A DNA stretch of 37,627 bases from NCBI GenBank assembly GCA_020851955.1, contig JADZBU010000075.1:1-37627 (forward strand), read 5' to 3'. Below are positions 13,229-37,627 of this stretch, piece after piece (the stretch's first letter is position 1; each line of letters opens with the position of its first letter). The translations under genes and the position numbers were made by a program. The DNA comes from Chromatiaceae bacterium (GTDB taxonomy: Bacteria > Pseudomonadota > Gammaproteobacteria > Chromatiales > Chromatiaceae). The notes below the pieces were generated by a model. The model saw only the letters and a program-made list of their open reading frames with translations. It was not told where the DNA came from and ran no database searches.

Positions 13229-16200
13229 TCATGACTCCACCCGGTAACAGAAGAGCTTGGTAGGCTTGGCGGAGTCGAGAAGGAAGTCGATACCGCCGGT
13301 GAGGTCATAGCGATATTCGACCTCGCACCCGTTTTGGTCGATCAGGGCGATGTCGATGGTCCGGTCATGGAAGTCGCGGCTCTTATGGAATTCGTGGACC
13401 AGTGACAACAGGTTGCTGCCGGCGAAAACCGTTCGCAGGGCATTGGTTAACTCGCGCGCAACGACATGTCGGGGTCGATAGTTCGGGTCCTTGTTGCGCA
13501 GTTCGCGGCCGTGGACCACCAACCGCTCCACCTTGGCTGCACTGGCGACGAGGAAACTCACCAACTCGACTAGCGCCGCCGTCTGGCTGGCACCGGCACC
13601 GCAGTAGGGATCTTTGATGGTGATGCTGGAGACCATCTGTCCCGCGATCGGCGCGAACCAGAGTGCGGGCGTGCGCGGGGCGCCGGCCTTGAACTCCCAA
13701 CGCTCCACTGGCAGAGAGGGGCGGAAGGCATCCGCAGCCACGGGGTGGGCCGCAGCCAGCAAGCCCCGCAGCATCTCGCTAACCGTGCCATCCAGGGTTC
13801 CGCGATAAATCGGAGGGGGCAGGATTTCCTGTAACAGGGGTTGGGTCGGCAGGAGCGAGAACCAGGCGCGCGCGCCCTCGTCGACCCCAGCCGCAACCCG
13901 CGGCAGTTGGATCAGATCTACCGGGTCCAGATCCTGGAGTTGGTCAATACGCAGCCGCGCGTCTTCCAGATAAGGCGAGAGATACCGCAATGCCTGGCGC
14001 TGGGCGACGGTGGCCGCCTTGATCCCGATGACAGGACTAACCAGCAGATGCAGGTGAAGCTTCAGCCCAGCGTTGAGAAGGTCCAAGAGCCAGTGCAACG
14101 GGAGTTGTTCCTCCCCGGCCTCGCCCACCAGACGCAGTGCGAGCAGATGGAATTGCGGCAACGCCTTTAGTGCGCGGCCAAGCTGCTCCAGGCTGGGGTC
14201 CTGCCAACGCGTAAGTCCAAGCCCGGGATAGATGTCCTCGGAGACCTCATCGCGGAGCACAGCGAGCCAAGCCTGGACCGGCTTGCGGTTGAGCTGGTCC
14301 CAATAGGTCTGATTGGAGTAGTCGCAGAGACAGGCGGTACAGGCGGTGGCACAGTCCGCCTCGCAGTTGAGGCGACCCACGGCGTCCGCCAGCAACGCCT
14401 TCACCGAAACGCTTTCTGCCAGGCGTACGCAGTATCCCGCGCCCCCGGCGACAGCGTCGTAGAGTACGATTTCAAGGGTGCGTGCGCGCAGCCTGAAGGT
14501 GGCGCGCAGCTCGCTTGTCTGGATCTCCAGTCGCGCCGCGGCGGTGAAGCGCAGGGCCTCGGCCAGGGTCCGGGCGAAGCATTCCGCCCATTGGCGCGGG
14601 TTGGCCTCGGCCCGATCCGGCGGCGGCACCGGGGCGGCGAAGCGCCAGAGCACCACGTCCGTGGCGAACTCGTGGGCAAGGTCCTGGGTATAGAGCGGCC
14701 CACTGTTTACGCACGTCTTGTCGCTCAGCAGGTCTTTGTGAACGATCTTGTTTGGTCCCGGCTTTTTAGCCGCAGTGGCGAAATTGCAGCGCGGACAGAC
14801 GTGGTACCCCTGGCCATAAGTTCCGCGATTGACAATGAACATCCGTCCATCGCTCTGTCCGTCTTCCGCCGGCCGCGCTCGCAGAAGGGTGACGCGGACC
14901 CGTGGGTGATCTGTGTCGCGGTAGTGATCATCCCGCGGGAGAGTGATCAAGCGCGCCTCGTCCGCGGGCCGCTCCCGCCTACGGTTAGTACCGGGGTCCT
15001 TACCGTTGCGATCGGAGTAACTGGTAACGAAACCGCGGGGACGCAGATAGGCCCGGCGCAGCCTACCAGCGCTAGCGCCACAATGGCTACAGGCCGGCGG
15101 CAGGTCGTCGCGGTCTAACCCAGTGTCGACATGGTGGCATTCGGGACAGGCGGCATACCATTCCCGCGGCATGAAGGTGCGGGGGTAGTAAGCAAGCCCT
15201 GCACTGGTCCAGATGCGACCGTTGGCGACGACCTCCGCGCCTGGGGCATACTCGCTGATGCCCAACATGGCGTCGCGGGAGAGCGAGACGTCGCCCTCCT
15301 TGCCCCAAAGTCCCTGCTGACCGAAGTTACGGGTCACCTCCAGGGTCAGGCTGTGCACCGGGAAGCTGTAGGTCGGGATCAGACTGCGCTGTGAGAACTG
15401 GTCTACCAGGAACTGCTGCATGTAACGCTCGCGCATCCGCATCCAATGCAGTTGTTTGGCTAAGCCGGCAGCGTCGGCAGATCCGGCGGCAGCCTCTTTC
15501 ACCTTGTCCTCATAGCGCTGCCACCGCCCGTGGACCTCCCCGGCGAAGGCGGCTATCTGCTCACGCACATGCCCCACCAAGGCAGGGCCGCGTAGTGCAA
15601 TGGCATCGGCGACCTGAGGCGGGAGGCGCTCGGCAAGACCTTCGGCCTCAGCAATGGCCTGGGCGCCACTTGGTTCTGACAGCCACCGGTCCAGCCAGTC
15701 GGTGGATCCTTGCAGGGCCATCGCATCGAATTGATCGCCGAATAGATCCGCCAGGCTTGGGGCGTTGACGGCCAGGTTGGTAATTCGCTGACGCAGCAAG
15801 TGCGAGAGCATCACCCCGACCTGATGGCGCTGAAACAACTGGGCGTTGTCGAGCAGCAGGAAGGGCACCGGTGCCGTCCCCCCCAGATACTCTCGAAAGC
15901 ACCGGTACATAGCTTGATCGTACTGGGCATTGCGCGCGACCGTGACGCAGAAGGGCGCCGCCTGGGCGCGCCGTCCCGCGCGGCCCGTGCGTTGCTGGTA
16001 GTTGGCGATGCCTGGCGGGATGTTGAGGTTGGCTACCGCTTCCAGGTCGCCTAGGTCGACGCCCATCTCCATCGTCGTGGTACAGCTCAAAAGATTAATC
16101 CCGCCACGGGCAAAGTCCCGTTCCACCTGCTCGCGCAGGTCGGTGGAGAGTGAGGCGGTGTGCTCGTGGGCACGGGCGGTCATGGCCCGACCTTCCCGGT

Positions 16201-19123
16201 AGAGATGAATGTAGTGGTTCTCATCCACCATGCCGCGGCGCTCGGCATCATCCAATCGACGGACTGTGCCAGTGCAGCCGAAGGCGGTGCAGCAGTCAGC
16301 CACCACGTCAGTCTGCAACAGGCCGCAGGTCGCGCAAACGAAGAGCGGGAACCCGGCGGCGTCTTCAAAGCGAAGTGCTTTCCCGTCCAAGCCGAAGCCC
16401 GGTTGATGGCGCACCGCGAGCCGCGTCGCCTGGAGGACATCCCAGACCACCGCAAGGAAGTCCCGGGCCTCAACCTGCGACCAACCGAGTCGCTTCATCA
16501 GGTAGGCAGTCCGGCGGTTGTGCCGCTGGGTACCCTCAGGGGGTAGCCAGGCATGACTGGCGTCGCTGCCCGAGTGGAGTGCGAACGAACGGTGCCCCGC
16601 ATAGGATGCGCCCCATACATATTCAGAGCGCAGGTCCACATCCCAGAGATTAACGATAGCCTTTTCCCGGCGCATGGTCTCCAACAGAAAGCGTAAGAGC
16701 GCCTCTGCCTGGGTCCGGTGGCGCTCCGGAATCTGCTGGGAGCAGTCCCGCAGCAGCTTGCGGAAGGCGCTTTTTTCCCAGGACACCCGCACCAAGCCGA
16801 GGGCCTCCAGTGAATTACGCCGGCCCCCCGGGGTACAGAATTCGGCCGCAATCCGCCCCATCAGCGGATCGCGCATCTTGCGTTTGTCGCTCTGGACCTC
16901 GCCATTCTCATCGATCAGCACCGGCTGTCCGCGCCTCTTCCAAGCCTTGAATACCTCCTCGAATAAGAGTTCCAAATCGAGTGGTTCATCCTCGCCCTGG
17001 AGTGCGTGATAGATGGCACTGCGCAACGCCAACTCGCCCGCCGTGCGCTCGAAATAGGGGGCAAAAAAGGCAGCGTTCTGGCGGTTATCTGAGAAGGTGA
17101 GGAGCGTTCGGCCGTCCATTGGCCGCGGTTCACCGAAGGGGTCAGGACGAGCCGGCAAAGCCTCCAGGACCTGTTGCACCACGACCGAGGACAGGGCCTC
17201 GTTACCGGGGTGCATCCGCGTGACAACCTCGGCTTCAGCCCCCGAGCTGCGCCCGCCGCAAGCCGGGCAGCGGGTGACATAACGGGCGCGATCCTGTTCG
17301 TCTTCCTTGGTGTCGATCTCATAGAGGGTGACGCCAGTCGCCCCACCGGTAGGCGGCAGCCCGGTGTGCGGATCGATGATGCGATGCTTGAACTGACTCT
17401 GGGGCGCGGCGATCGCGTCGGCGTCCAGATCCTCCTCATCGGCGGTCATGACATCCGGCGGTTTACCCAACCAGAAGATGTGACGCTTGACTTGGCCCTC
17501 GTCCACCAAGGGGCGGCGGTTGTGCAGACGCCCATGGTGGTCGAAACCCTCCAGGTAGGGCTGACCACACTTACGGCACACCAGGAGCGGAAAATATTGG
17601 CCGGTGTCGTCCGCATAGACGCGCAATGGCTTGAGAATGCGCCAGCCTTCCGGTGCATCGCCATTCAGTGCGACCGAGACCCCTTCGATGCCACTCACCG
17701 CCAGGTGATAGCGGGCCGGGAGTAAGGGGAAGGCGTCCTCGTGGGCACGCGCCAGCATCCCCAGATGGATGACCGCGCTCAGAGCAACGGTGCGGTCATC
17801 GGCGTCGCCATCGGCAGCGCCGCCGAACACCCGCTCCGCCACTTCGGCAAAGGCCAGCACTCCGCCGGCGGAGAGGATGGCAGAGGTCGCCCGAATCTCA
17901 CGGTTGTGGCTGAACACCGCCTCCAATGCAGGCCCGAGCCGCTGCTGGTCGGCCGGGAGGCCGGGCATCCGGTCTGCGATTGCCTGATCCGCAAGCGCCT
18001 CGTGCCAATGGACGGGCCCCGGTTCCGGCTCGGCAGTGACGGACTCCAATACCCGGCCAATGGCGCACCAGGTCGTAAGGTCGAGGCTGAACTCTTCGGG
18101 ACTAGGCCGGGTGAGTCCGTAGTGCGGGATGCGTCGGCCCCGGATGATCTGGTCAACCGGCTCGCCGAACAGGTTCTTGGCGAAGGTGAGGATCTGGCGA
18201 TTGTTGTCCTCGCCCTCCGGCAGGCTAGCGCTGGTCCCAAAGACCTGGAGCCGACACGTCAGTCCCAACCGATTCTTGAGCTTGCGCAACAGATAGGCCA
18301 CCTCGGTGGCCTGGGCCCCCGTGTAGGTGTGGATCTCGTCCAGGATCAAGCACTCCAGGCTATCATGGGCGAACAGGGGTGCATTGCGGGGCAAGAGCAG
18401 CAGATGCTCCAGCATGGCGTAATTGGTGATGAGGATGCGCGGTGGGTTGGCGAGCATTTCCTCGCGGGTTAGACGCCAATGATCCGGGATGCGTCCGCCC
18501 AAGGCGGACATCAGCTTGTCGTTCTCCCGCAGCCGGGACTCTTCTTCATCACGCCGTGTCTTAGCGCGGATCTGGGAGGTGAAGCGTCCGAAGCTGATAC
18601 GCGCCGACGCCAGTTGTCGGCCAAACAAGGGGGCGATGCGGTAGTAAAGCTGATCATTGGCCAGGGCGTTCATCGGATAGATCAGCAGACCTCGCACCCC
18701 CGGACGGTCGGGTTGTGGGTCATCCAGCAAACGATGGGCCAGCGGGTAGAGGAAGGTCTCGGTCTTGCCCGATCCGGTGCCGGTGGCGGCCAACAGACTC
18801 TCTTGGCGCTCGCAGGCGGCACGTAGCGCCTGCTCCTGGTGCAGGTGCAGGGGGCGATCCAGGATGTGGGCCGGCAAATCGGCTAATCCGTCGTGCAGGA
18901 AGCCGCCCTGGGCACGTAACAGGGTACGCAGGGATGCACCCTTCTCGAAGTCCGGTAGGGCCTCCAGGTAAGGCCCCTTCACCAACTCCTTTTGTTCGAC
19001 CAGATCGCGAAAGGCCTGGCGCAACTCTGGATAGCGCCGGCTGATGGGCAGGGTGGTCGGGATATATCGTCGCAGAGTGTCGCGCAGGCTGCGGTACAGG
19101 ACCAGGGGGTTGCGCTCAGACAT
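13229..19123 (-). CDS. druE: Druantia DruE-like helicase with DUF1998 region
   Basis: This 1964-residue superfamily 2 helicase starts at the ATG at 19123, which has GAGGAG about 8 nt upstream and overlaps the end of the preceding gene by 8 bp. Helicase motifs are the Walker A GTGSGKT (115-121), the DEIH box (262-265), GTSASL, and TTMEMGVDLGDL with QRTGRAGR (1044-1051). The two helicase lobes are separated by a long region with Cys pairs (CRKCG, CPACGG, CATCG and CCTAFGC). After the second lobe come CPECHH...CSHCG and a DUF1998-type cysteine cluster (C..CATACTACLCDY, near 1585-1600). The last roughly 140 residues contain KDPY (1837-1840) and FHDR (H1919-R1921) and look like a MIT_C/phospholipase-D-like domain. 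Size, motifs and the partner gene fit DruE, the hallmark protein of Druantia anti-phage systems. DISARM DrmA/DrmB-type helicases are the main alternative, but their partners are absent. Confidence 0.78.
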   Translation of the reverse strand: MSERNPLVLYRSLRDTLRRYIPTTLPISRRYPELRQAFRDLVEQKELVKGPYLEALPDFEKGASLRTLLRAQGGFLHDGLADLPAHILDRPLHLHQEQALRAACERQESLLAATGTGSGKTETFLYPLAHRLLDDPQPDRPGVRGLLIYPMNALANDQLYYRIAPLFGRQLASARISFGRFTSQIRAKTRRDEEESRLRENDKLMSALGGRIPDHWRLTREEMLANPPRILITNYAMLEHLLLLPRNAPLFAHDSLECLILDEIHTYTGAQATEVAYLLRKLKNRLGLTCRLQVFGTSASLPEGEDNNRQILTFAKNLFGEPVDQIIRGRRIPHYGLTRPSPEEFSLDLTTWCAIGRVLESVTAEPEPGPVHWHEALADQAIADRMPGLPADQQRLGPALEAVFSHNREIRATSAILSAGGVLAFAEVAERVFGGAADGDADDRTVALSAVIHLGMLARAHEDAFPLLPARYHLAVSGIEGVSVALNGDAPEGWRILKPLRVYADDTGQYFPLLVCRKCGQPYLEGFDHHGRLHNRRPLVDEGQVKRHIFWLGKPPDVMTADEEDLDADAIAAPQSQFKHRIIDPHTGLPPTGGATGVTLYEIDTKEDEQDRARYVTRCPACGGRSSGAEAEVVTRMHPGNEALSSVVVQQVLEALPARPDPFGEPRPMDGRTLLTFSDNRQNAAFFAPYFERTAGELALRSAIYHALQGEDEPLDLELLFEEVFKAWKRRGQPVLIDENGEVQSDKRKMRDPLMGRIAAEFCTPGGRRNSLEALGLVRVSWEKSAFRKLLRDCSQQIPERHRTQAEALLRFLLETMRREKAIVNLWDVDLRSEYVWGASYAGHRSFALHSGSDASHAWLPPEGTQRHNRRTAYLMKRLGWSQVEARDFLAVVWDVLQATRLAVRHQPGFGLDGKALRFEDAAGFPLFVCATCGLLQTDVVADCCTAFGCTGTVRRLDDAERRGMVDENHYIHLYREGRAMTARAHEHTASLSTDLREQVERDFARGGINLLSCTTTMEMGVDLGDLEAVANLNIPPGIANYQQRTGRAGRRAQAAPFCVTVARNAQYDQAMYRCFREYLGGTAPVPFLLLDNAQLFQRHQVGVMLSHLLRQRITNLAVNAPSLADLFGDQFDAMALQGSTDWLDRWLSEPSGAQAIAEAEGLAERLPPQVADAIALRGPALVGHVREQIAAFAGEVHGRWQRYEDKVKEAAAGSADAAGLAKQLHWMRMRERYMQQFLVDQFSQRSLIPTYSFPVHSLTLEVTRNFGQQGLWGKEGDVSLSRDAMLGISEYAPGAEVVANGRIWTSAGLAYYPRTFMPREWYAACPECHHVDTGLDRDDLPPACSHCGASAGRLRRAYLRPRGFVTSYSDRNGKDPGTNRRRERPADEARLITLPRDDHYRDTDHPRVRVTLLRARPAEDGQSDGRMFIVNRGTYGQGYHVCPRCNFATAAKKPGPNKIVHKDLLSDKTCVNSGPLYTQDLAHEFATDVVLWRFAAPVPPPDRAEANPRQWAECFARTLAEALRFTAAARLEIQTSELRATFRLRARTLEIVLYDAVAGGAGYCVRLAESVSVKALLADAVGRLNCEADCATACTACLCDYSNQTYWDQLNRKPVQAWLAVLRDEVSEDIYPGLGLTRWQDPSLEQLGRALKALPQFHLLALRLVGEAGEEQLPLHWLLDLLNAGLKLHLHLLVSPVIGIKAATVAQRQALRYLSPYLEDARLRIDQLQDLDPVDLIQLPRVAAGVDEGARAWFSLLPTQPLLQEILPPPIYRGTLDGTVSEMLRGLLAAAHPVAADAFRPSLPVERWEFKAGAPRTPALWFAPIAGQMVSSITIKDPYCGAGASQTAALVELVSFLVASAAKVERLVVHGRELRNKDPNYRPRHVVARELTNALRTVFAGSNLLSLVHEFHKSRDFHDRTIDIALIDQNGCEVEYRYDLTGGIDFLLDSAKPTKLFCYRVES

Positions 19124-22100
19124 CGACAGACTCCTCATCCGCAGCGTCCGCATCGGCGGCGAACACCAGTTCCCAGAGCATCAGATAAAACTCAAAGACA
19201 TCCCGGCCGACATAGAGTAGGTAGCCAACGGCCTGGGTTTGGGCCTGGACATCGAAGTCGGAGAGCAGCCCTTGGCGCAAGGTTTGTTGCCAGGCACTCA
19301 AGGGGCCGGCGCCCCGGGCCTCCCAGCGGCAGACGGACGCAAACAGGCAGAGCGTCCTGTCGATCAACAACAGATTCTCCTGCTCTTGGTCCCAGCCACC
19401 GGCAGGCATCGTGATCATCAGCCCCAGCCCGTCAGCATCGTGCAGGTGGGCCGGAATGCCTGGGGCGAAGCTCGCCAGCGGTCGGCTCCGGAATGCGCGT
19501 ACCAGACGCATAGCCCAACCGCGGCGCGCCTCGTTTCCGGCCAGGGTGGCACGGTAGCGTTGCTGCAGCGTGCCAAGGGCATAGCGCCAATGTACTGGCC
19601 CCAGGTAATCGCCCTCGGTCGGACGCCAGTCTTCACGACTTAGCCGGGACCAGGCGTCGTCAATGTTGCGGGCAAAAAGAGCTGCCCGGTAGCGCTTGAG
19701 CGAGAATCCGCACGGCGGCGTGCCCTTCTGCATCCGCATGACATTGTGAAACCCAATCGCCAGGGTCTGTTCAATATGTTGCTGGAGGAACAGTTGGCAG
19801 AGCGGGGCGCGGAGCCGACACAGTTCACCGAGCAGGCCGCCGCGCCCACCAATGGCGTGATAGGCCACGGATTCGCGTGCGTAGCACCAAGGTATGGCCG
19901 CGCCGATAGAGAGTAGGGGAAACCAGCTCACCTGGGCAGTCAGTGGCGGACCGAGCGCATCCAGGGCGACCAATTCTGTCAGGGTCTGCCCGCTGACCGG
20001 CTCAAGCCGCCGAGCCAGCCTACGCCAGATGGCCTCAAGCCACATGATGCCGTGCCAGGCGTCAGGGGCGTAACAGGCTAAGAGGGCTTTGTGGACACGC
20101 TTGAAGACCGTGATCAATTTCGCTAGGTCGAGTGCGTCGGTCTGGCCCAGTAACCAGTGCTGGGTTACAGAGTTCCCAGCGTCGTTGATTAGGGCACCCC
20201 AGGCGTATATATCTTCCCGTTCGTTGACCAGGGCGCCCCAGCGACCATGGAGTCTTACTTCCACCCGGAGCAGCCAAGCCCCCCCCGACCAGCGCTCCAA
20301 GGGGAATTCAAGGCAATGGGGAAATTGGCCCGTTTCCCTGCGCTCGCCGCAGGATAGCCAGCCGAGGGTCGAGCGATCCAGGTGCGCGGCGGCCTCGTTG
20401 CAAAGTAAATCCAGTTCCAAGGTCCGCCCTGTCAGCAGGTCTTGGGCCGAGCAACGCATCGCTTCTGCGGCGGTCGGAAGGTTCAGCCTAACCCGCAACA
20501 AACCGCCCTTGGTGTCCGTCGTCATACCGAGAACCTGATGGGGCGTCACCAACTCCATGAGGGGCTCCGGTGTACCCCCCGGTAACTGGAACCAGAGTCT
20601 GTTCTGGCCCGGTTCCAGGTATTCCGCCAGCGATGACAGATGCAACCGCCGCATCCCGGGGCCGGACGGAACCTCCTTCCGCCATCGCCCCAGCGTCAGG
20701 GTTCCGCCTTGGCTGGAGTAAATATCCAGAACCTCCATGGAGTTGCCACGTACGGCCAGCACTGCGCCCTTACGTACGGGCGTCTCCTCCACCTGCCCTT
20801 CGTGAAAACGCTTCAGGATCATGAAGGCGCCAGGCACCGCCCCGGCGAACTGGACGCTGCGGCCGGACACCAGCACGAAGGCGAACCTGAAGAATCGCTT
20901 GGCATCGCTGCGGTAGCTGATTTCCTGGCGGGTCTCATCAACCGCCAGGTTGTCGCACCGGTCAGGGTCCAGGTTGGACGGCAGCACCGCGCAGCGAAAT
21001 CGCACCCGGTCATCGATGCCCTGCAGTCCAAACCACAGATAGGCAGCCAAACGCGCCATGGGGCGGCGAATCTCTGTCCGCCGCAGTTCGACGCCGAGGC
21101 GGGTCAGACCCGGCCTAAATCCTTGGGTGACTCCTTCCAGGTCCACCTCGAAACGGCCATCGGCACCCGGTGTTACCGGGATCTCCAACTCCGAATCTAC
21201 GCCCGGCCCAGTAAGAACAAGGCGGAGCCCGCCCGACGGTTCAGTCAGCAACTCGTGCGGCACCTGTCCGCGCAAACCCAGGCCAGCCGAGGCATAGAAC
21301 TCGTTGCCGCCGACCCCCCGGAAGGATGCGCCATAGAAAGCTAGCGTCGGGCGGCCGCGGGCCGTCAGGAGGGCCTCGGCAGGACCGCGGCGTAGCGCCA
21401 GCGTTTCGCCAGGTGCCAGATCCGCCGCTAGCCAGTACAGGGTTGGGTCTGGACTGATCTCGGTGACCTCCCCCGGGTACTCATCCGGACGGAAGCGAGT
21501 CACCAGCGTAACCATCCCCGGGTCGATCAACAGGGTTTCTTCAGCGTTGAGACGCCCGCTAGCGCATAACAGCCCAGCAGAGTCGAAGGCGAGAAAGCGA
21601 TTGTTGCGCCCGTCATCCCAAAGGGAAAACGCCTTGCTCAGGGCGCCGTCCCTGCGTGAGACCTTGGCGCTACCCGGTAATGGCGGGCAATCAAACGGGA
21701 TGAATCGCGTATCTGTCGCGCCCCTGTAATGGTGGATCTGACCGTCGACATCGACGACCCAGGGGGTGCCATCGCCAGGGGGCAACTCGATACCCAGCCA
21801 GTCGTCGCGCCAGACGACCTTGGGAATGGACAGACCCTGCGGATGAATCGGCCCATGGCCGGCGATGGCTTCCGCCATCGCGGCGGCGATAGTCGAATCG
21901 GTCCCTGAGGGTTTGGAGTCGGCCTCCTTCAGGAGGCGCAGAAAGAGCCGCACATAGAATCCGTTGATGTCGCCGTGGACGGCCCTCTGCACGGTCAGAG
22001 GGACTGGCGGGCCGAGTCGCTCCGCCATGGCACCCTGCCATAGCACGACCCCATCCGGGTCGTCCGACTCGGGGACCCCGGCGAGAGCGGCATATTTCAG

Positions 22101-22583
22101 CATCCGCTTGGCAAGGTCCGGCACGAACAGCATCGGCACTCCTGCCTGGTGCAGATATTCGGCCACCATATATGCGGTGGTCGAGTGGGCAGGGACCACA
22201 TCCAACCCAAGCCGAATACAGGCGCGACGGTAAGCCCGCCAAAGTTTGTCCCGTTGCGCCTGCGTCAACTCGCGAGCATCTCCGAACAGGGCGGCGGTGA
22301 CGTAGGGATAGACGGCGGCATTACCTTCAGCGCCATATCCCTCAACCACATGCGCCGTCAGGTGAGAGGCAAAGACCGCGGGCCAGCGCTGCAATGCGTT
22401 CAGAAATCCTTGAAAAGGGTCGCGCAAGCCGGCAAGGGTGTTGCGCAAACGAACCCGCACGGTCTGGGTGAAAAGATCGGCGTAGAGCCCAAGGAAAGGC
22501 TTATCGCCGATATCGAGCTGTTGCCTGAGCGCCTGCTCCGTGTGCAAGAGCCAGATCTCGTTCGCAGATGAGAAAATGGGCAT
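19116..22583 (-). CDS. druH: Druantia type III DruH-like protein of unknown activity
   Basis: This 1155-residue protein has AAGGA eight nt before the ATG at 22583. I recognise no catalytic motif, signal peptide or membrane segment. The sequence is a mix of alpha-helical N- and C-terminal parts and a central beta-rich stretch (about 280-780) with many WVVDVDG- or LRLVLTGPG-like strands. It ends with an acidic tail (FAADADAADEESVDV). It is the first gene of a unit in which the last 8 bp overlap the DruE-like helicase, so the two are translationally coupled. A large protein of this length directly upstream of druE is the layout described for Druantia type III (druH, druE). The name rests on size, order and partner, not on residue-level recognition. 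Base composition is slightly lower in GC than the flanking metabolic genes, which fits an acquired defence cassette. Confidence 0.68.
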   Translation of the reverse strand: MPIFSSANEIWLLHTEQALRQQLDIGDKPFLGLYADLFTQTVRVRLRNTLAGLRDPFQGFLNALQRWPAVFASHLTAHVVEGYGAEGNAAVYPYVTAALFGDARELTQAQRDKLWRAYRRACIRLGLDVVPAHSTTAYMVAEYLHQAGVPMLFVPDLAKRMLKYAALAGVPESDDPDGVVLWQGAMAERLGPPVPLTVQRAVHGDINGFYVRLFLRLLKEADSKPSGTDSTIAAAMAEAIAGHGPIHPQGLSIPKVVWRDDWLGIELPPGDGTPWVVDVDGQIHHYRGATDTRFIPFDCPPLPGSAKVSRRDGALSKAFSLWDDGRNNRFLAFDSAGLLCASGRLNAEETLLIDPGMVTLVTRFRPDEYPGEVTEISPDPTLYWLAADLAPGETLALRRGPAEALLTARGRPTLAFYGASFRGVGGNEFYASAGLGLRGQVPHELLTEPSGGLRLVLTGPGVDSELEIPVTPGADGRFEVDLEGVTQGFRPGLTRLGVELRRTEIRRPMARLAAYLWFGLQGIDDRVRFRCAVLPSNLDPDRCDNLAVDETRQEISYRSDAKRFFRFAFVLVSGRSVQFAGAVPGAFMILKRFHEGQVEETPVRKGAVLAVRGNSMEVLDIYSSQGGTLTLGRWRKEVPSGPGMRRLHLSSLAEYLEPGQNRLWFQLPGGTPEPLMELVTPHQVLGMTTDTKGGLLRVRLNLPTAAEAMRCSAQDLLTGRTLELDLLCNEAAAHLDRSTLGWLSCGERRETGQFPHCLEFPLERWSGGAWLLRVEVRLHGRWGALVNEREDIYAWGALINDAGNSVTQHWLLGQTDALDLAKLITVFKRVHKALLACYAPDAWHGIMWLEAIWRRLARRLEPVSGQTLTELVALDALGPPLTAQVSWFPLLSIGAAIPWCYARESVAYHAIGGRGGLLGELCRLRAPLCQLFLQQHIEQTLAIGFHNVMRMQKGTPPCGFSLKRYRAALFARNIDDAWSRLSREDWRPTEGDYLGPVHWRYALGTLQQRYRATLAGNEARRGWAMRLVRAFRSRPLASFAPGIPAHLHDADGLGLMITMPAGGWDQEQENLLLIDRTLCLFASVCRWEARGAGPLSAWQQTLRQGLLSDFDVQAQTQAVGYLLYVGRDVFEFYLMLWELVFAADADAADEESVDV

Positions 22584-27804: not shown

Positions 27805-28062
27805 CTAGCGGCATGGTTTGGGGGTGAGACAGGTGGCGCTCAGGACAGGCAGCCAATGCCGTTTGCCGCCGATGCGTACCCCGGTCTCGTCGGCATGGGC
27901 AACCTCCAGCGTCGCACCCGGATGCTGCTTATGCCCCCCGGGCTGCTGGCCACGGTTCGTCCGCAGGGATTTGGGGGGCGGTTTCTTGAAGGGGGGATCA
28001 GAGGACGGTGGTTTGCTGGAGTTGTGGCTATCCTTGGCCAAGCGCGCTTCCAGTTCAGATAA
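27805..28062 (-). pseudogene. IS66-family transposase remnant, internally deleted
   Basis: The frame reads LSELEARLAKDSHNSSKPP followed by SSDPPFKKPPPKSLR and a GGHKQHPGATL segment, the typical N-terminal linker of the IS66 TnpC transposase. It then jumps directly to VAHADETGVRIGGKRHW, which in intact proteins lies far downstream in the catalytic core and contains its first DDE aspartate. The intervening part (of the order of 150-200 residues) is missing, and the frame ends soon after at 27805. The piece cannot encode an active transposase. Its 5' part overlaps the last codons and stop of the PIN gene, so the element edge lies at that gene's 3' end. No terminal inverted repeats or other IS66 genes are seen. 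Confidence 0.82.
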
Positions 28063-28624
28063 GGTCGATATGATCCTCCAACAATGCAGCGACGCCCGTC
28101 AGACCTTGGCGGCGCAGACAGGCGACGAAAGCATCGGGCGTTAGCGGTGGATTGTGAAGCGAGGCACGCTGCTGTTTGGCCGCGACGATCAAGACGCCCG
28201 GTTCCAGGTCCGCCAGATCAAGCACAAAGTCGTCTGGATGGCGTGCGAAGATATCGAAGTCCCCAAGCGCGGCCTGGGGAAAGTCCTTCAGGTTAAGGGT
28301 TACGATGCACTGGGCACCGGCACGGATGGCCGCTGCCAGAACATGTCGATCGTCGGGGTCCGGCAGGTCCAGATCGTCGATCAGAGATTCGTAGCCCGTC
28401 ACGAGGCAGTCCGGTACCGCCCGGTCAATCAATTGGGCCGTCCGCGCGATGCTCTGCGGGTCCAGTTCAGAGCGCTGTCTCAGCAATGCGCCGATCCACT
28501 CCTGTCGAATGCGCTCGGTCCAGCGGGCACGAAACCGTCTGGTCTGGGCTAGACGGATCATCAGGTCCCGTAGCGGTGCCGGATAGAACAGGCATGCATC
28601 GTAGACGACCGTGAAGTTGGCCAT
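28055..28624 (-). CDS. PIN-domain toxin-like ribonuclease
   Basis: This 189-residue PIN protein (PIN_3/COG1569 type) is probably a metal-dependent ribonuclease toxin. The acidic residues expected for a PIN active site are visible: D9 in VVYDACLFYP, E42 in RQEWIG, D91/D92 in DPDDRHVLAAA, and the NLKDF motif with D114. Its ATG follows the stop of the HTH gene with no gap (TAGATG), the usual antitoxin-toxin order. The last codons and the TGA overlap the IS66 remnant, so the C-terminus may have been altered by that insertion, although the PIN core is intact. A VapBC-like function is inferred from family and gene pairing. Confidence 0.82.
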   Translation of the reverse strand: MANFTVVYDACLFYPAPLRDLMIRLAQTRRFRARWTERIRQEWIGALLRQRSELDPQSIARTAQLIDRAVPDCLVTGYESLIDDLDLPDPDDRHVLAAAIRAGAQCIVTLNLKDFPQAALGDFDIFARHPDDFVLDLADLEPGVLIVAAKQQRASLHNPPLTPDAFVACLRRQGLTGVAALLEDHIDLI

Positions 28625-29083
28625 CTAATACCCCAGGCCCAGCTCCTGAGCCACGGCGGTCAGGGTGTCCGCTGCTTCGCGACTGGCGTTATCGATCCGC
28701 TCCTTGTAGACCAGCAGATCGGCGAATCGGATGCGCCGATGACGGCCGAGCTTGTGGAACGGGATGTCCCCCGCCTCCAGCCGCTTGACCAAATAGGGTC
28801 GCGAGACATTCAACAGGTCCGCCGCCTGCTGGGTGGTCAGCTCCGCGTGCACAGGTACCAGCGACACCGCATTTCCCTGCGCCATCTGGCTCAAAATGTC
28901 AACGAGCATGTGGATGGCGGACACCGGCACCGTCACATCGGTGTCCCCGTCGATCAGGCGCAACCGCGCCTGCTTGCCGCCTCCCGCACAGGCGGCAAGC
29001 AAACGGCTGCTCTCCGCCGCAAGCCCGGCCTCTTCGTCGGTCGGCAAGCGGACGGTACGCAAGAGACTCGATGCCACGCTCAT
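28625..29083 (-). CDS. HTH (excisionase/MerR-like) antitoxin-type DNA-binding protein
   Basis: This 152-residue protein has a C-terminal helix-turn-helix of the excisionase type: LTTQQAADLLNVSRPYLVKRL, then GDIPFHKLGRHRRIRFADLL. The ATG at 29083 is preferred over a GTG two codons upstream, because GGAG lies 9 nt before the ATG and only a few nt before the GTG. The N-terminal 85 residues show no known motif. It sits directly upstream of the PIN gene, and such HTH-PIN pairs are a known toxin-antitoxin arrangement in which the HTH protein neutralises the toxin and represses the pair. Autoregulation is inferred. Confidence 0.8.
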   Translation of the reverse strand: MSVASSLLRTVRLPTDEEAGLAAESSRLLAACAGGGKQARLRLIDGDTDVTVPVSAIHMLVDILSQMAQGNAVSLVPVHAELTTQQAADLLNVSRPYLVKRLEAGDIPFHKLGRHRRIRFADLLVYKERIDNASREAADTLTAVAQELGLGY

Positions 29084-29089
29084 AGCCAC

Positions 29090-31179: not shown

Positions 31180-32301
31180 ATGGACGAACAAGATGCCACC
31201 CCGTCCGACCTCACCACGGCGCCGGCCGCCCTTGGCCGCTGGCCGCCCCTCGCGGCATCGCCTTCAGCCCCTCCCCCCTACGATGACGAACTGGCACACT
31301 TTTTCACCCAGTCCCTCGACCTGCTGTGCATTGCCGGATTCGACAATTATTTCAAGGTCTTGAACCCGGCGTGGACCCACCGACTGGGTTGGACCCTGCA
31401 GGAACTCAAGGCCAGGCCGATCCTCGACCTCGTGCATGCCGACGATCGCGCCGCCACCCGGGCCCAAGTCACCGCGATCGCCCGCGGGCAGGAGCCAAGG
31501 CTCTTCGAAAACCGCTTCCGTCACCGGGACGGCAGCTACCGCTGGCTGCGCTGGAACGTGCGCCCGGTGCCGGGCCGCGCACGGATCTACGCCATCGCGC
31601 GGGACATCACCCAACAAATACGCCTGGAGAGCGAGATCGTCGCGATCGCCGATCAAGAAAAGGAGCGCATGGGTCGGGAGTTGCACGACGGCTTGTGCCA
31701 GAACCTGGCCGGGATCGCGGCCCTGAGCGCGACCCTGTCCCGCCGCCTCGCGGCGCACGCCGACCCCGCCGCCTCCGCCGCCAGCGAAATTGCCAAGCTG
31801 CTGAATGACACCATCCGCCAGACCCGTGACCTGGCGCGTGGTTTCGTCCCGCTGGGCTTGCACGAGGCCGGTCTCGAAGGGGCGCTCGAGACCCTGGTCG
31901 GCAATATCCGGCAGCGGTTTCACGTCTCCTGCACCCTGGCCTGCGATCACCCACTCACCCACCTTCCCCCCGAGGTCGCGGTCCACCTGTTTCGCATTAC
32001 CCAAGAGGCCGTCCACAATGCCGTGGCCCACGGACGGGCCGATCAGATCGAAATCACCCTCGGCTGCCAGGATGGTCAAGGTCTGCTCAGCGTGCGGGAC
32101 ACGGGGGTCGGCCTGTGCGTGAAAGTCAGCCAAGGCAAAGGCATCGGCCTGCACACCATGGCCTACCGGGCGCGGATGATCGGTGGGACCCTGGAGATGC
32201 AGACGCCCCTCCGGGGCGGCACCCGGGTCCTCTGTGCCTTTCCCCTGCCCGCATCACCCGACGCCAGCGAGGCCCCCGACCATGCCCGTGACCCCACCTG
32301 A
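31180..32301 (+). CDS. Soluble PAS-domain sensor histidine kinase (NarL-partner, HisKA_3 type)
   Basis: This 373-residue kinase has no membrane segment and so senses a cytoplasmic signal. A PAS domain spans about residues 45-150 (SLDLLCIAGFDNYF through RIYAIARDIT). The dimerisation/phosphoacceptor part is RELHDGLCQNLAG with H169, the HisKA_3 form. The ATPase domain has ITQEAVHNAVAHG (N280), DTGVGL and GIGLHTM. No cysteine or histidine pattern for a bound cofactor stands out, so the ligand is unknown. The chosen ATG has GAGG directly before it, closer than usual, so a longer or weaker start is possible. The response regulator gene overlaps its 3' end by 20 bp, which makes it the obvious partner. 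Confidence 0.88.
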   Translation: MDEQDATPSDLTTAPAALGRWPPLAASPSAPPPYDDELAHFFTQSLDLLCIAGFDNYFKVLNPAWTHRLGWTLQELKARPILDLVHADDRAATRAQVTAIARGQEPRLFENRFRHRDGSYRWLRWNVRPVPGRARIYAIARDITQQIRLESEIVAIADQEKERMGRELHDGLCQNLAGIAALSATLSRRLAAHADPAASAASEIAKLLNDTIRQTRDLARGFVPLGLHEAGLEGALETLVGNIRQRFHVSCTLACDHPLTHLPPEVAVHLFRITQEAVHNAVAHGRADQIEITLGCQDGQGLLSVRDTGVGLCVKVSQGKGIGLHTMAYRARMIGGTLEMQTPLRGGTRVLCAFPLPASPDASEAPDHARDPT

Positions 32302-32974
32302 GGCAAGCGACCAGCCCGACCCGCGCAGGCGCATCCTGATCGTCGACGATCATCCCATGCTGCGTCGCGGACTCGCCGCCCTGATCGAATCCGTGCCCGA
32401 CCTCACTGTTTGCGGCGAAGCCGCCACCCGCACCGCCGCCCTCGAGGCCATCCGGGCTAACCCGCCCGACCTGGTGATCGTCGATCTCATGCTCGGGGAC
32501 AGCCATGGTCTCGATCTGGTCAAGGACCTCAAGATCCGCCACCCCGGGATGCCGGCCCTGGTCCTCTCCATGCATGACGAGGCCCTCTATGCGGAGCGTT
32601 CCCTGCGGGCCGGGGCCCGTGGCTACGTCACCAAGCAGGAGCTGGACGACACCTTGCTCATGGCCATCCAGCGGGTGCTGGCCGGAGACATCTACATGAG
32701 CGGCAAGCTCCAGGCCCGGCTCGCCGCCCATTTCGTCGCCGGGCCAACGCCGGAAACGGGTGCGACCTGTGAGGGGCTGAGCGACCGCGAACTGGAGGTC
32801 TTTCGCCTGATCGGCCAGGGGCGGGGTACGCGCCAGATCGCCGAGGCCCTCCATCTCAGTATCAAGACCATCGAATCGCACCGCGAACACCTCAAGCAGA
32901 AGTTGCGCCTGGCATCCGGCGTGGAGCTCGTCCACCGCGCGACCCAATGGGTCGAGCACGAACTTGCCGGCTGA
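32282..32974 (+). CDS. NarL/FixJ-family response regulator
   Basis: This 230-residue regulator starts at the ATG at 32282 inside the kinase gene, in another frame. The receiver domain has IVDDHPML, the phosphoacceptor D68 in VIVDLMLGD, LSMHD, and the conserved K118 in YVTKQE. The C-terminal LuxR-type helix-turn-helix begins at LSDRELEVFRLI and includes TRQIAEALHLSIKTIESHR. It should be phosphorylated by the overlapping PAS kinase and then bind DNA. Its targets are unknown. The next gene downstream on the same strand is the collagen-like protein 199 bp away, a possible but untested target. Confidence 0.92.
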   Translation: MPVTPPEASDQPDPRRRILIVDDHPMLRRGLAALIESVPDLTVCGEAATRTAALEAIRANPPDLVIVDLMLGDSHGLDLVKDLKIRHPGMPALVLSMHDEALYAERSLRAGARGYVTKQELDDTLLMAIQRVLAGDIYMSGKLQARLAAHFVAGPTPETGATCEGLSDRELEVFRLIGQGRGTRQIAEALHLSIKTIESHREHLKQKLRLASGVELVHRATQWVEHELAG

Positions 32975-33173: not shown

Positions 33174-34514
33174 ATGAAAAAACCTACCTTGAGCAGGATC
33201 GCGGTAGCGGTGAAAGCGGCCGTTTACGGCACGCTCGTGCTAGCGTCGGCCGGCACCATCGCCGACACGCTACATCTCACCGATGACACATACACCAAGC
33301 AAGACAAAGTCACCGAGAACAATGGCGCCCAACAGGTTCTGCAAATCAATGACAAGGTTGCTGGCAAGGAGCGCGTTGGGTTTGCCCGGTTTGATCTGAC
33401 CCCTTTGCCCGACGGCATCACGGGTGCGGACATTGAAAAGGCCACGCTGCGGGTCTGGGTGGAGAAAGTCGGGCAAGCCGGAGATATCAACTTCGTAATC
33501 GTTCAAAATCCCTGGGACGAATCCACGCTCACGGCAGGTCTTGCCGCTCAGTTCCCCCCGGGGATTCCGGTCGTGGATACCCTATCCGTCACGTCAGCGG
33601 ATGTAGAAAACTATGTGACCGTCGATGTCACCGACGCGATGCGGTCTTGGGTCGATGGAACCCACCCCAACAACGGGCTTGAAGCGATGCCGGTCGGGGT
33701 CGAGGTCGAACTGGGCAGTAAGGAGACCGACAAAGAGCACGAGATGCAGATTGAGGTGGCGCTGGTTAGTGTCGGGCCCGCCGGACCCGCAGGTGCTGCT
33801 GGTGTTGATGGCGCGGTTGGGCCGGTAGGTCCGCAAGGCCCGATAGGTCTGACCGGCGCGGTTGGGCCGACCGGTTCGCAGGGTCCAATAGGGCTGACGG
33901 GCCCAGCTGGGCCGACCGGTTCGCAGGGACCGACAGGTCTGACGGGCGCGACCGGGCCAACCGGCCCGCAGGGTCCGATAGGGCTTACGGGCGCGGTTGG
34001 GCCGACCGGTCCACAGGGACCTGCCGGTGCTGATGGTGCCATAGGACCACAGGGTCCGGCGGGCGCGACCGGTCCACAAGGATCCGGCGAGCCGCCCGTT
34101 TCGTTCTTTGTCGGCAACGATGCACAAAGTCCTCAATTGATCCCTGCAGGCGTAGGGGCGGACGTGGATTTCGACAATGTGCGATTCAACGAGGGTGGAG
34201 GCTTCAACGATGATACCAACAGGTTCACACCACCGAATTCAGGGGTTTACCACTACTCCGCGAACATCTCCTTCAAAGCGCCCGCTGGTCGAGTCGTGCA
34301 GTTCTTCCTGCGACACAGCGGCGGCGACCTCGCACGAGCGGAGGTAGACACCAGTGGCAGCGGATACGAGTTCGTGAACATGGACGCAACGTGGGACTCG
34401 ACCTATCGGGGTGGCCCCGTCTGGGTGAATGCGTTCCTGTCGGGAAGCGATGGCAATCTTGAGGTGAAGTACCTCACCAGCAACTTCAGCGGCCATCTCG
34501 TCTACCAAAAATAG
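33174..34514 (+). CDS. Secreted collagen-like protein with DNRLRE and C1q-type domains
   Basis: This 446-residue protein has GAGGAG eight nt before its ATG. A signal peptide (residues 1 to about 30, basic start then [13 protein letters not shown]) sends it out of the cytoplasm. Residues about 33-195 match the DNRLRE (CBM96-like) beta-sandwich, with [22 protein letters not shown] and [15 protein letters not shown]. Residues 201-302 are 34 uninterrupted Gly-X-Y triplets, largely [15 protein letters not shown]. The C-terminal part (about 310-446) is C1q/TNF-like: [28 protein letters not shown], and the closing FSGHLVY. Collagen segments with C1q heads trimerise in animals, so a trimeric extracellular stalk with binding heads is likely. 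Ligand and location (surface, matrix or spore-like coat) are unknown. A strong terminator follows, so it ends its transcript. Confidence 0.88.
33828..34007 (+). repeat. Four 45-bp tandem repeats in the collagen segment
   Basis: Four diverged copies of a 45-bp unit encode 15-residue blocks of the form [15 protein letters not shown] (with S, T, P and A variants at X and Y positions). A partly matching fifth block starts at 34008. Nucleotide similarity between copies points to recent duplication, and copy number may vary between strains. Confidence 0.85.
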
Positions 34515-34520
34515 TCCGAT

Positions 34521-34547
34521 GGGTGGGCACCTGGTTTGTGCCCACCC
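34521..34547 (+). terminator. 10-bp stem after the collagen-like gene
   Basis: GGGTGGGCAC and GTGCCCACCC pair perfectly across a 7-nt loop, 6 bp after the stop codon. No T-tract follows, so it probably acts with the next hairpin or protects the 3' end. Confidence 0.5.
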
Positions 34548-34578
34548 GACTTCGGGTTAACCCTCCACTCATGACCAC

Positions 34579-34609
34579 TGCCCAACCTACTCAGGTTGGG
34601 CATTTTTTT
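34579..34609 (+). terminator. Intrinsic terminator
   Basis: TGCCCAACCT and AGGTTGGGCA form a perfect 10-bp stem with a 4-nt loop, followed directly by seven T residues. This is the clearest Rho-independent terminator in the window and ends transcription of the collagen-like gene. Confidence 0.9.
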
Positions 34610-34740
34610 GACTCTCTTCCCTGCAGCGCGGGAAAGAGGTCAGCCTTCGCAAGCTCAAGCCTCGATCAAGGGGGCTCCTCGGGCTTGCAAGGAGAGGCCA
34701 GAACCCACTGTGCCCGGCTATCCGCCCCCCATCCCTCCAT

Positions 34741-35013
34741 GATCGCCAGCGCCTCGCCTTGTATGCCACCCATTTTCACCCCAATATCCGGGGCGTGACC
34801 GGAACCCCCGATCAGGTGGCTAAGGCTGCACAAGGCTATGGCATCGTCTTTAGCCGGATCGATCAGGGTGGTTCGTCTCTGGGCTAGAGGCTGGACCACT
34901 CGACGGAGACCCATGGGGCGTACCCCCGGGGTCGCTGGGTCCGGACCTTTCCCCACGCGACGCCCGCCACCAAAATCCGGATTTTCACCCCCGGCCTGCT
35001 GGCCTCGCATTAG
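34741..35013 (+). pseudogene. Degraded SCO1/SenC copper chaperone, C-terminal part
   Basis: One frame reads DRQRLALYATHFHP, then NIRGVTGTPDQVAKAAQGYG and IVFSRID, which is the SCO1/SenC segment after the DPERDTP motif. After an in-frame TAG at 34885-34887 the same frame continues with RLDHSTETHGAYPRGRW and VRTFPHATP, the family's DHS...P.G segment with the conserved metal-ligand histidine, and stops at 35011-35013. The N-terminal thioredoxin fold with its CxxxC copper site is not found between the terminator and this piece. The gene is therefore truncated at the 5' end and interrupted. Intact SCO1 delivers copper to cytochrome oxidase and is often a neighbour of PCuAC, the gene that follows here. 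Confidence 0.78.
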
Positions 35014-35050
35014 ATCTACCCTACCCCCGACCCAAGGAGACCCCAACTCA

Positions 35051-35497
35051 ATGATACGTTCCTCGTCCCTCCTCGCCGCCGCCCTCCTGGCCACCGCCAC
35101 CCTCGGTGCCCAGGCGGGCGATATTAGCGTAACCGACCCCTACGCCCTGGCGGTGCCGCCGGGCCAACCCAACAGCGCCGTCTTCATGACCCTGGTGAAC
35201 AACTCCAAGGAAAACCGGGCCCGGGTGGCCGCCGAAACCCCGTCCGCCGGGGTGGTGGAACTGCACACTCATGTCCATGAGGACGGGATGATGAAGATGC
35301 GCAAGGTCGACAACATCGAGATCCCCGCCGGTCAGACGGTGACCCTCAAGCCGAGCGGGTTTCACGTCATGCTGATCGGCCTCAAGGAGAAGCTGGAGCC
35401 GGGCCAGGAGGTGCACATGAATCTCATCTTCGACAAGGGCGGCAAGGAGCACATCATGGCCCCGGTCCGGGCGATGGCCCCGCCCATGGCCCATTAA
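35051..35497 (+). CDS. Periplasmic copper chaperone PCuAC
   Basis: This 148-residue protein has a signal peptide (MIRSSSLLAAALLATATLGAQA) and a PCuAC (DUF461) beta-barrel. The start at 35051 follows AAGGAG at a longish spacing. Cu(I) ligands are visible: VELHTHVHEDGMMKMR supplies His and Met residues, and FHVMLIGL supplies the late H-x-M pair. A His/Met-containing tail (MAPPMAH) could add ligands. PCuAC proteins carry copper to the CuA or CuB site of cytochrome oxidase, often with SCO1. The SCO1-like gene directly upstream is broken, so this chaperone may act alone or with a SCO1 encoded elsewhere. The frame extends upstream of the ATG, but only this start gives a signal peptide. Confidence 0.93.
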   Translation: MIRSSSLLAAALLATATLGAQAGDISVTDPYALAVPPGQPNSAVFMTLVNNSKENRARVAAETPSAGVVELHTHVHEDGMMKMRKVDNIEIPAGQTVTLKPSGFHVMLIGLKEKLEPGQEVHMNLIFDKGGKEHIMAPVRAMAPPMAH

Positions 35498-35620: not shown

Positions 35621-37627
35621 TTAAGCGGATCTTGGTTCCCCGCGCTCCCGTAACCACAGAAAGATCACCGGCGTGACGATGAGGATATGCACCAGGCTGG
35701 AGATCATGCCGCCGACGACGGGGGCGGCCAGGGGCTGCATGATCTCCACGCCCGTGCGCTGGAGCCAGAAGATGGGGGTCAGGGAGGCGATGGTGGTGGC
35801 GACGGTCATGACCTTGGGACGTAGGCGCAGGCGGGCGCCCGCCTTGACGGCCTGGGTCAGTTCCTCGCGAGTCAGGGTCCGGCCCAGGCGCTGGCGCGCC
35901 GCCTGAACCGACTCCTCCAGATAGGTGACCATGATGACGCCCGTCTGGATGGCGGTACCGAACAGGGCGATATAGCCGACCCAGACGGCGACGCTGAAGT
36001 TAAAGCCCATCCAGGCCTGGAGCAGGACGCCGCCGGTAAGGGCAAAGGGCACCGCCAGCAGGACATGGGCCGCCTCCCCCACCGAGCGGAAGGTCATCAC
36101 CAGGGCCCCAAAAATAATCAGAATGACGGCGGGGAAGACATAAAGGAGGGTCTGACGGGCCCGCAACTGGTGCTCGTATTGGCCCGAGTATTCGATCGAC
36201 ATGCCCGGGGCCAGGTCCACCTCCGCAGCGATACGCGCCTTGATGTCCTCGACGAAGCTTCCCAGGTCGCGATCGCGGACATTGGCCTGGACGAAGACCC
36301 GCAGCCGGCCGTTCTCGCTCTGGATCTCGTTGGGGCCGACCACCCGCTTGATGTCGGCCACCTGGCGCAACTGGACGGTGGCTCCGGAGGGGGTGGTTAC
36401 CAGGATCTCGCCCAGCTTGTCGATGTCGCCGCGCTCGCCCTGCTCCAGACGCACCTGCAACGGCCAGCGCTCGCGGCCCTTGAGGGTGGTGCCGACGGTC
36501 GCCCCGCCGATCCCGGCCTCCACCTGGCGGAACACCTCCTGGACGCTGAGCCCGTAGCGGCCAAGCTGGTCGCGGCGCACGGCGATCTCCAGATAAGGCT
36601 TGCCCTGCACCCGGGAGGGCGCCACCCCCACCGCCCCCCACACCCCATTGATCACCCGCTCGACCTCGAAGGCCTTTTGCTGGAGGGCGTCCAGGTCGTC
36701 GCCAAAAATCTTGACCCCGACCTGGGCGCGGATGCCAGTGCTGGTCATGAGGATGCGGTTTTCGATCGGCTGGAGAAAGCCGGGCACATAGCCAGGCAGG
36801 TTCATCAGCTCCGCCGAGAGGTCGGCGATGATGGAGGCCTTGGTGGTCCCGGGCGGCCACTGGTCGCGGGGCTTGAGCTGGATGGTGGTTTCGATCATCT
36901 CCACCGGGGCCGGGTCGGTGGCGGTGGTGGCGCGCCCCAGCTTGCCCGCCGCCGAGATGACGGCCGGATGGGCGCTGATCACCTGGTCCTGCCAGGCCAT
37001 GATGCGCTTGACCTCCGTCAGGGCGGTGGCGGGGAGCAGGACCGGCATGAAAAGCAGGGAACCCTCCTCCAGGGTCGGCATGAACTCGCTGCCGAACCCC
37101 TGGGTATGCCGCGCGACGGACTCCGGCAGCCGCTCGTTGACCACCCGCGGCAGCCCCAGGGCGATCACCAGGCAGACGGCGAGCAGGCTGGCCGCGAGCC
37201 CCAGCACGGTTTTGCGGTGGTCGAGGGCCCAGTCCAGCGCCGGGTCATAGAGCCGCAGCAGCCCCTTCATCAGCCAATTCTGGTCCTCGGGCTGGAGCGG
37301 ACCCCGCACCAGCAGGGTGCAGAAGACCGGCACCGCCGTTACCGCCAGCAGGGTGGCGCCGATCAGGGCGAAGGTCTTGGTGTAGGCGAGGGGGTGAAAG
37401 AGCTTGCCCTCCTGGCCGGTCAGCAGGAAGACCGGGACAAAGGCCAGGATGATGATCAGCATGGAGAAGACCAGGGGCCGACCGACCTGGGTGGCGGCCG
37501 TCAGGGTCTGGGCAAAGACCTCGGCGGGGGTGAGCCGCCGGCGTAAGGACGCCTCGGTGCGCTCGCAGTGCCGGATCACGTTCTCGGTCATGACGATGCC
37601 CGCATCGACCAGGACGCCGATGGAGAT
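35621..37627 (-). CDS. CusA/CzcA-type heavy-metal RND efflux pump (5' end cut by the window)
   Basis: The frame stays open to the window edge, with ISIGVLVDAGIVMTENV at its start, which is the transmembrane 4 region of HME-RND pumps. So 668 of about 1,030 residues are present. Further signatures are FMPTLEEGSLLFMP, ENRILMTSTGIRAQVGVKIFG, GIGGATVGTTLKGRERWP and the C-terminal spans ending FLWLRERGEPRSA. The LMTSTGIR and the methionine-rich periplasmic stretch fit the Cu(I)/Ag(I) subgroup (CusA) better than zinc/cobalt pumps, but this is a judgement from the visible half. It acts as the inner-membrane proton-driven part of a tripartite pump. Membrane-fusion and outer-membrane partner genes should lie beyond the window. 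It converges on the PCuAC gene, so both flank a copper-related locus. Confidence 0.92.
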   Translation of the reverse strand: MSIGVLVDAGIVMTENVIRHCERTEASLRRRLTPAEVFAQTLTAATQVGRPLVFSMLIIILAFVPVFLLTGQEGKLFHPLAYTKTFALIGATLLAVTAVPVFCTLLVRGPLQPEDQNWLMKGLLRLYDPALDWALDHRKTVLGLAASLLAVCLVIALGLPRVVNERLPESVARHTQGFGSEFMPTLEEGSLLFMPVLLPATALTEVKRIMAWQDQVISAHPAVISAAGKLGRATTATDPAPVEMIETTIQLKPRDQWPPGTTKASIIADLSAELMNLPGYVPGFLQPIENRILMTSTGIRAQVGVKIFGDDLDALQQKAFEVERVINGVWGAVGVAPSRVQGKPYLEIAVRRDQLGRYGLSVQEVFRQVEAGIGGATVGTTLKGRERWPLQVRLEQGERGDIDKLGEILVTTPSGATVQLRQVADIKRVVGPNEIQSENGRLRVFVQANVRDRDLGSFVEDIKARIAAEVDLAPGMSIEYSGQYEHQLRARQTLLYVFPAVILIIFGALVMTFRSVGEAAHVLLAVPFALTGGVLLQAWMGFNFSVAVWVGYIALFGTAIQTGVIMVTYLEESVQAARQRLGRTLTREELTQAVKAGARLRLRPKVMTVATTIASLTPIFWLQRTGVEIMQPLAAPVVGGMISSLVHILIVTPVIFLWLRERGEPRSA

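Follow-up and report, generated by a model that had tools for sequence, protein, structure and literature searches.

Between a collagen-like gene and the PCuAC copper chaperone gene of a Chromatiaceae bacterium lies a gap of 440 bp (34610-35050) that appears empty, and the question is whether it holds the remains of a gene and, if so, how the copper chaperone beside it has fared. The window, i.e., the whole stretch of DNA analysed, comprises 37,627 nucleotides (contig JADZBU010000075.1) and its features are collected in Table 1. A first-pass annotation had read in this gap two peptides of the copper chaperone SCO1 in a single frame, broken by one TAG and deprived of the CxxxC half. Our analysis indicates that the segment from 34729 to 35010 is very probably a pseudogene of SCO1/SenC, in which only the 3' half is left of a gene once located directly upstream of PCuAC.

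Table 1. Coordinates of the features in and around the gap upstream of PCuAC.
Feature	Position	Strand	Evidence
Collagen-like gene: DNRLRE/CBM96, collagen repeats, C1q-like domain	33174..34514	+	
Terminator-like stem-loop followed by a T run, 3' of the collagen-like gene	34579..34602	+	
DNA without SCO1 similarity, expected place of the SCO1 5' half	34610..34728	.	tblastn, DNA profile, family-genome search
SCO1/SenC remnant, C-terminal half (probable pseudogene)	34729..35010	+	PF02630, tblastn with intact SCO1 proteins, gap-free DNA profile alignment
In-frame TAG within the remnant	34885..34887	+	Column near-invariant among intact copies
Intact PCuAC periplasmic copper chaperone gene (stop included)	35051..35497	+	PF04314, motif
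CusA/CzcA-type RND efflux gene, continuing past the window end	35621..37627	-	

The relationship with SCO1 is apparent at both the protein and the DNA levels. In the whole-genome scan PF02630 (SCO1-SenC) matched 34741-34908 (profile positions 71-124 of 134) with 33.6 bits, reading through the TAG and above the cut-off of 22.8 bits, a significant match that makes the remnant a sequence relative of SCO1/SenC. The 48 residues preceding the TAG matched the same profile by themselves (32 bits), and were matched by solved SCO proteins with E values from 2e-4 to 6.3e-4. Intact SCO1 proteins of relatives found the gap by tblastn with E values down to 4e-23 among the matches listed, and a nucleotide profile built from 34 intact copies (nhmmer) aligned with 34740-34978 without a single gap (E 9.9e-34). 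When the whole gap was scored with the profile of the 34 intact relatives it obtained 76.3 bits, the best of 1000 dinucleotide shuffles reaching 4.9. The distal histidine (DHS/DHT) is present as LDHS, in frame after the TAG, and a terminal in-frame TAG (35011-35013) directly follows the remnant. The first-pass reading thus holds for the common frame of the two peptides, for their SCO1 similarity and for the single internal TAG; of the extent that it had proposed, the SCO1 part stands, and the 5' boundary has to be moved from 34610 to approximately 34729-34740.

The absence of the CxxxC half had also been correctly recognized. No SCO sequence was detected 5' of 34729, either by tblastn in the forward frames or with the DNA profile, so that this half is missing and with it the copper motif of a working SCO1. 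Nor did a degraded 5' half appear anywhere in 34000-35200 (protein profile in the three forward frames, DNA profile on both strands). A search of 194 family genomes with the stretch in its expected place matched the own genome only. As for the rest of the own genome, no matching SCO1 5' half was found there. The SCO1 profile gives the weak PF02630 matches on contigs C418 and C98 scores far under those of SCO1; the C98 frame is, as we read it, an AhpC-like peroxiredoxin, and the C418 match adjoins what we take to be an AhpF-like frame. The match on C345 and the first one on C191 were also weak, and C89 encodes a SCO-like protein that is longer and matches in part.

What the intact gene would have looked like can be seen in the relatives. 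Of the 71 loci examined, a set that includes duplicates (one genome in two collections), 59 have an intact, CxxxC-bearing SCO1 directly upstream of PCuAC and in the same orientation. In a wider set of 118 PCuAC loci, duplicates included, in which further decayed SCO1 copies were sought, SCO1 was upstream in 64 and not in 50, most of these distant, with too little sequence in the remaining four; two of the 64 (L038 and L137, both distant, with PCuAC 33-35% identical) had a SCO1 that aligned only partly. Since an intact SCO1 is found upstream in these proportions, SCO1-PCuAC is the usual arrangement of the family, as the first-pass annotation had expected of relatives, and the window keeps both the place and the strand of SCO1 relative to PCuAC. 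In one locus (L032, contig C64 of genome G007) a continuous open frame of 354 codons spans SCO1 and PCuAC, the two chaperones being apparently fused.

A way to assess the condition of the remnant is to compare its divergence with that of the adjacent PCuAC. For this comparison we have used 34 of the 59 loci with SCO1 upstream, leaving out the named-genome loci L076-L092 (mostly duplicates), those with PCuAC identity below 55% and identical sequences. The mean protein identity of the remnant to the 34 intact copies was 0.398, outside the range of the per-copy means of these (0.499-0.692), while the window PCuAC, with 0.581, fell inside the range of its relatives (0.568-0.714). Among the columns conserved in at least 90% of the intact copies, here called near-invariant, the remnant kept 17 of 30 and lost 13, the TAG column among them; each intact copy, left out in turn, kept at least 84%. 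PCuAC kept 50 of 55 (91%, the minimum among relatives being 89%). On a fixed tree, with a topology built on the position 1 and 2 columns of both PCuAC and SCO1 (remnant included), the window terminal branch at codon positions 1, 2 and 3 measured 0.543, 0.464 and 0.832 for SCO1, and 0.238, 0.201 and 1.271 for PCuAC. In the SCO1 tree the window was the longest of 35 tips only at positions 1 and 2, ranking 13th at position 3; it accounted for 0.050-0.159, 0.047-0.225 and 0.022-0.047 of the tree at the three positions, as bootstrapped with 15 resamples per partition. The remnant shows in this way the relaxed constraint of a pseudogene, and the pattern is that of constraint lost on SCO1 and retained on PCuAC.

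Compared with working SCO1/SenC/PrrC proteins (PF02630), and specifically the copy paired with PCuAC in Chromatiaceae, the remnant shares the place, the strand, the C-terminal half and the DHS stretch. It differs from them in having lost the CxxxC half and conserved columns and in carrying one internal stop; an uninterrupted frame with a membrane anchor is precluded both by this TAG and by the lack of the N-terminal part. With ordinary bacterial pseudogenes it shares the truncation, the stop codon and the surplus of change at the first two codon positions, and it departs from them solely in having no indels over 239 aligned bases. This feature and the still good SCO1 score count against the pseudogene view. 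The lack of indels implies that the decay is fairly recent or that the frame was kept for some time, and suggests that the decay of the remnant is not old.

The neighbouring gene has the sequence features of a PCuAC (PccA/PcuC): the PF04314 domain at 129.2 bits, normal constraint and the copper motif H-x10-M-x21-H-x-M, which was found in the 34 relatives used as well. Its closest relatives are found in purple sulfur bacteria (Thiodictyon with 65% identity, Thiocystis with 60-64% and Thiocapsa with 54-59% being among the best named matches). It differs from the known system in that its adjacent SCO1 partner is broken, and the 50 loci mentioned above likewise have no SCO1 just upstream. A ribosome site AAGGAG (35034-35039) lies 11 bases 5' of the ATG; a promoter scan of the gap revealed no sigma-70-like site. 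In a mechanical ORF listing the longest PCuAC frame runs from 34838 to 35497 on the forward strand, with its ATG inside the remnant, and gene callers may therefore annotate a wrongly extended PCuAC. The start preceded by the ribosome site is that at 35051. The claim that the ancestral copper chaperone pair has been lost is only half right: the SCO1 partner alone appears to have decayed, PCuAC is intact, and the genome has elsewhere an intact SCO1, with CPDIC and DHS, on contig C191 (5215-5907), next to frames that we read as CyoE, CtaA and SURF1.

We propose that the ancestral state was a SCO1 directly upstream of PCuAC, an arrangement still seen in purple sulfur bacteria related to this one. 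The anchor and the CxxxC half, neither of which was detected, would have been removed by a deletion or rearrangement that broke the gene at about 34729-34740. The remaining half has since drifted without constraint, as the excess of change at codon positions 1 and 2 shows, and carries a stop. PCuAC has retained its own ribosome site and, judging from its sequence, remains under selection. It may still carry periplasmic copper, delivering it to the SCO1 that is left or else straight to CuA proteins (Cox2, NosZ).

The nature of this event leaves room for other views. A doubtful but conceivable one is that the remnant and PCuAC form the edge of an acquired segment of about 34 kb, SCO1 having been cut upon transfer or insertion. 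The RND pump has orthologs in two congeners (87% and 86%), and in one of them (G001) a ferritin-like gene comes within about 1 kb after it, succeeded by a GH17-like gene, whose homolog lies at the opposite end of the window. Matches of the window to the G001 contig stop at 35646 and 1510; the ferritin-like gene sits there instead, and the approximately 34 kb in between (1510-35646), with PCuAC at the pump-side edge, have no counterpart at that place in G001. In congener G003 the ferritin-like stretch after the RND gene is shortened, PCuAC was not found in any of the three congeners, and the block encodes a DruE-like defence protein. However, PCuAC is common in the family, being present in 158 of 194 genomes (the own one included), so that its loss in the congeners is equally likely. 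Two of the three congener drafts have a completeness of 76% and 92%; moreover, the window has no tRNA, and the remnant is situated on the side of PCuAC that faces into the segment, opposite to the RND edge. The DruE-like protein is a helicase of 1974 aa (PADLOC, 547 bits) that adjoins a protein of 1155 aa (19116-22583) without Pfam or PADLOC match, both on the reverse strand (13229-22583), and the two are perhaps a Druantia-type defence locus. Also on the reverse strand (28055-29089), a PIN_3 domain protein lies beside an HTH_17 protein, resembling a toxin-antitoxin pair.

The first-pass annotation had favoured a replacement, in which the SCO1 5' half was removed when the collagen-like gene inserted together with its terminator. 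Both do occupy the expected place of this half, and the gene was found full-length in the own genome only (55 genomes searched). On the other hand, some 120 bp without SCO1 similarity separate the terminator from the remnant, and neither a mobile element nor a target duplication was identified. In addition, the collagen-like gene, the kinase-regulator pair (31180-32974) and the RND pump had no homologs near PCuAC in the relatives' loci, for which mostly 1.5 or 5 kb of flank were compared, with the exception of distant kinase/regulator matches in L122 and a 21% RND match in L144. Both flanks have thus changed, neither matching those of the relatives, and the 5' loss cannot be pinned on the collagen-like gene. 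This is one of several changes, any role of it in the truncation is a guess, and the replacement seems to us unlikely. The palindrome at 34522-34546 was considered as a mobile repeat, but its pattern occurs once in the own genome and we take it as a terminator-type hairpin; similar stretches of 27-37 bp are found in four other family genomes (G006, G094, G100 and G138). A viral source of the collagen-like gene was unsupported, with relatives in 14 of 88 candidate viral stretches and matches centred on the collagen repeats.

Finally, both the TAG and the 5' junction are known from a single draft assembly (475 contigs, 88.9% complete, 4.87% contamination) that also has in-frame TGAs, possibly base errors, in a cox2 and an AhpC-like frame. 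That the species has a full-length SCO1, the contig being misjoined near 34729 and the TAG erroneous, is very improbable, as neither a misjoin nor one wrong base explains the 13 lost columns or the excess change at positions 1 and 2, and the search of the genome yielded no matching 5' half. The TAG could be a base error; correcting it would not restore the gene, since neither the loss of conserved residues nor the absence of the 5' half hinges on it.

The cox2 frame (COX2; contig C381, L209 1543-1545, minus strand) has its TGA exactly where the CuA motif should have its second cysteine (CAEL-stop-GTWHSRM), and selenocysteine, mutation or base error are all possible. Selenocysteine deserves little weight, the downstream sequence folding no better than shuffles; the AhpC-like frame of C98 also having a TGA, base errors or decay are favoured. 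Cox2 and the C474 protein with a CuA-type stretch, presumably a NosZ, are possible copper clients.

With the pseudogene reading, the PCuAC of this bacterium would be left without its adjacent partner. According to PMC7558416 and PMC9145763, PCuAC cooperates with Sco when CuA is assembled, in ways that differ among bacteria, and PCuAC is reported to insert copper into subunit II of the Thermus ba3 oxidase in vitro without Sco1; as the former describes, the need for a dedicated SCO1 partner varies across reported systems. In the open-access literature searched, by word co-occurrence only, Sco1, pseudogene and PCuAC never appear together in one paper, and neither do Chromatiaceae and PCuAC. Tentatively, PCuAC might have been naturally uncoupled, being selected after the death of the adjacent SCO1 and hence working with the SCO1 of C191 or loading CuA (NosZ, Cox2) directly, as for Thermus in vitro.

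In this purple sulfur bacterium, the locus appears to hold a pseudogene of the ordinary kind next to a chaperone that was retained. Its importance is mainly one of annotation, a seemingly empty gap being a recognizable pseudogene over which the ORF listing extends PCuAC. As a natural experiment, if a modest one, it also bears on the dependence of PCuAC on a SCO1 partner of its own.
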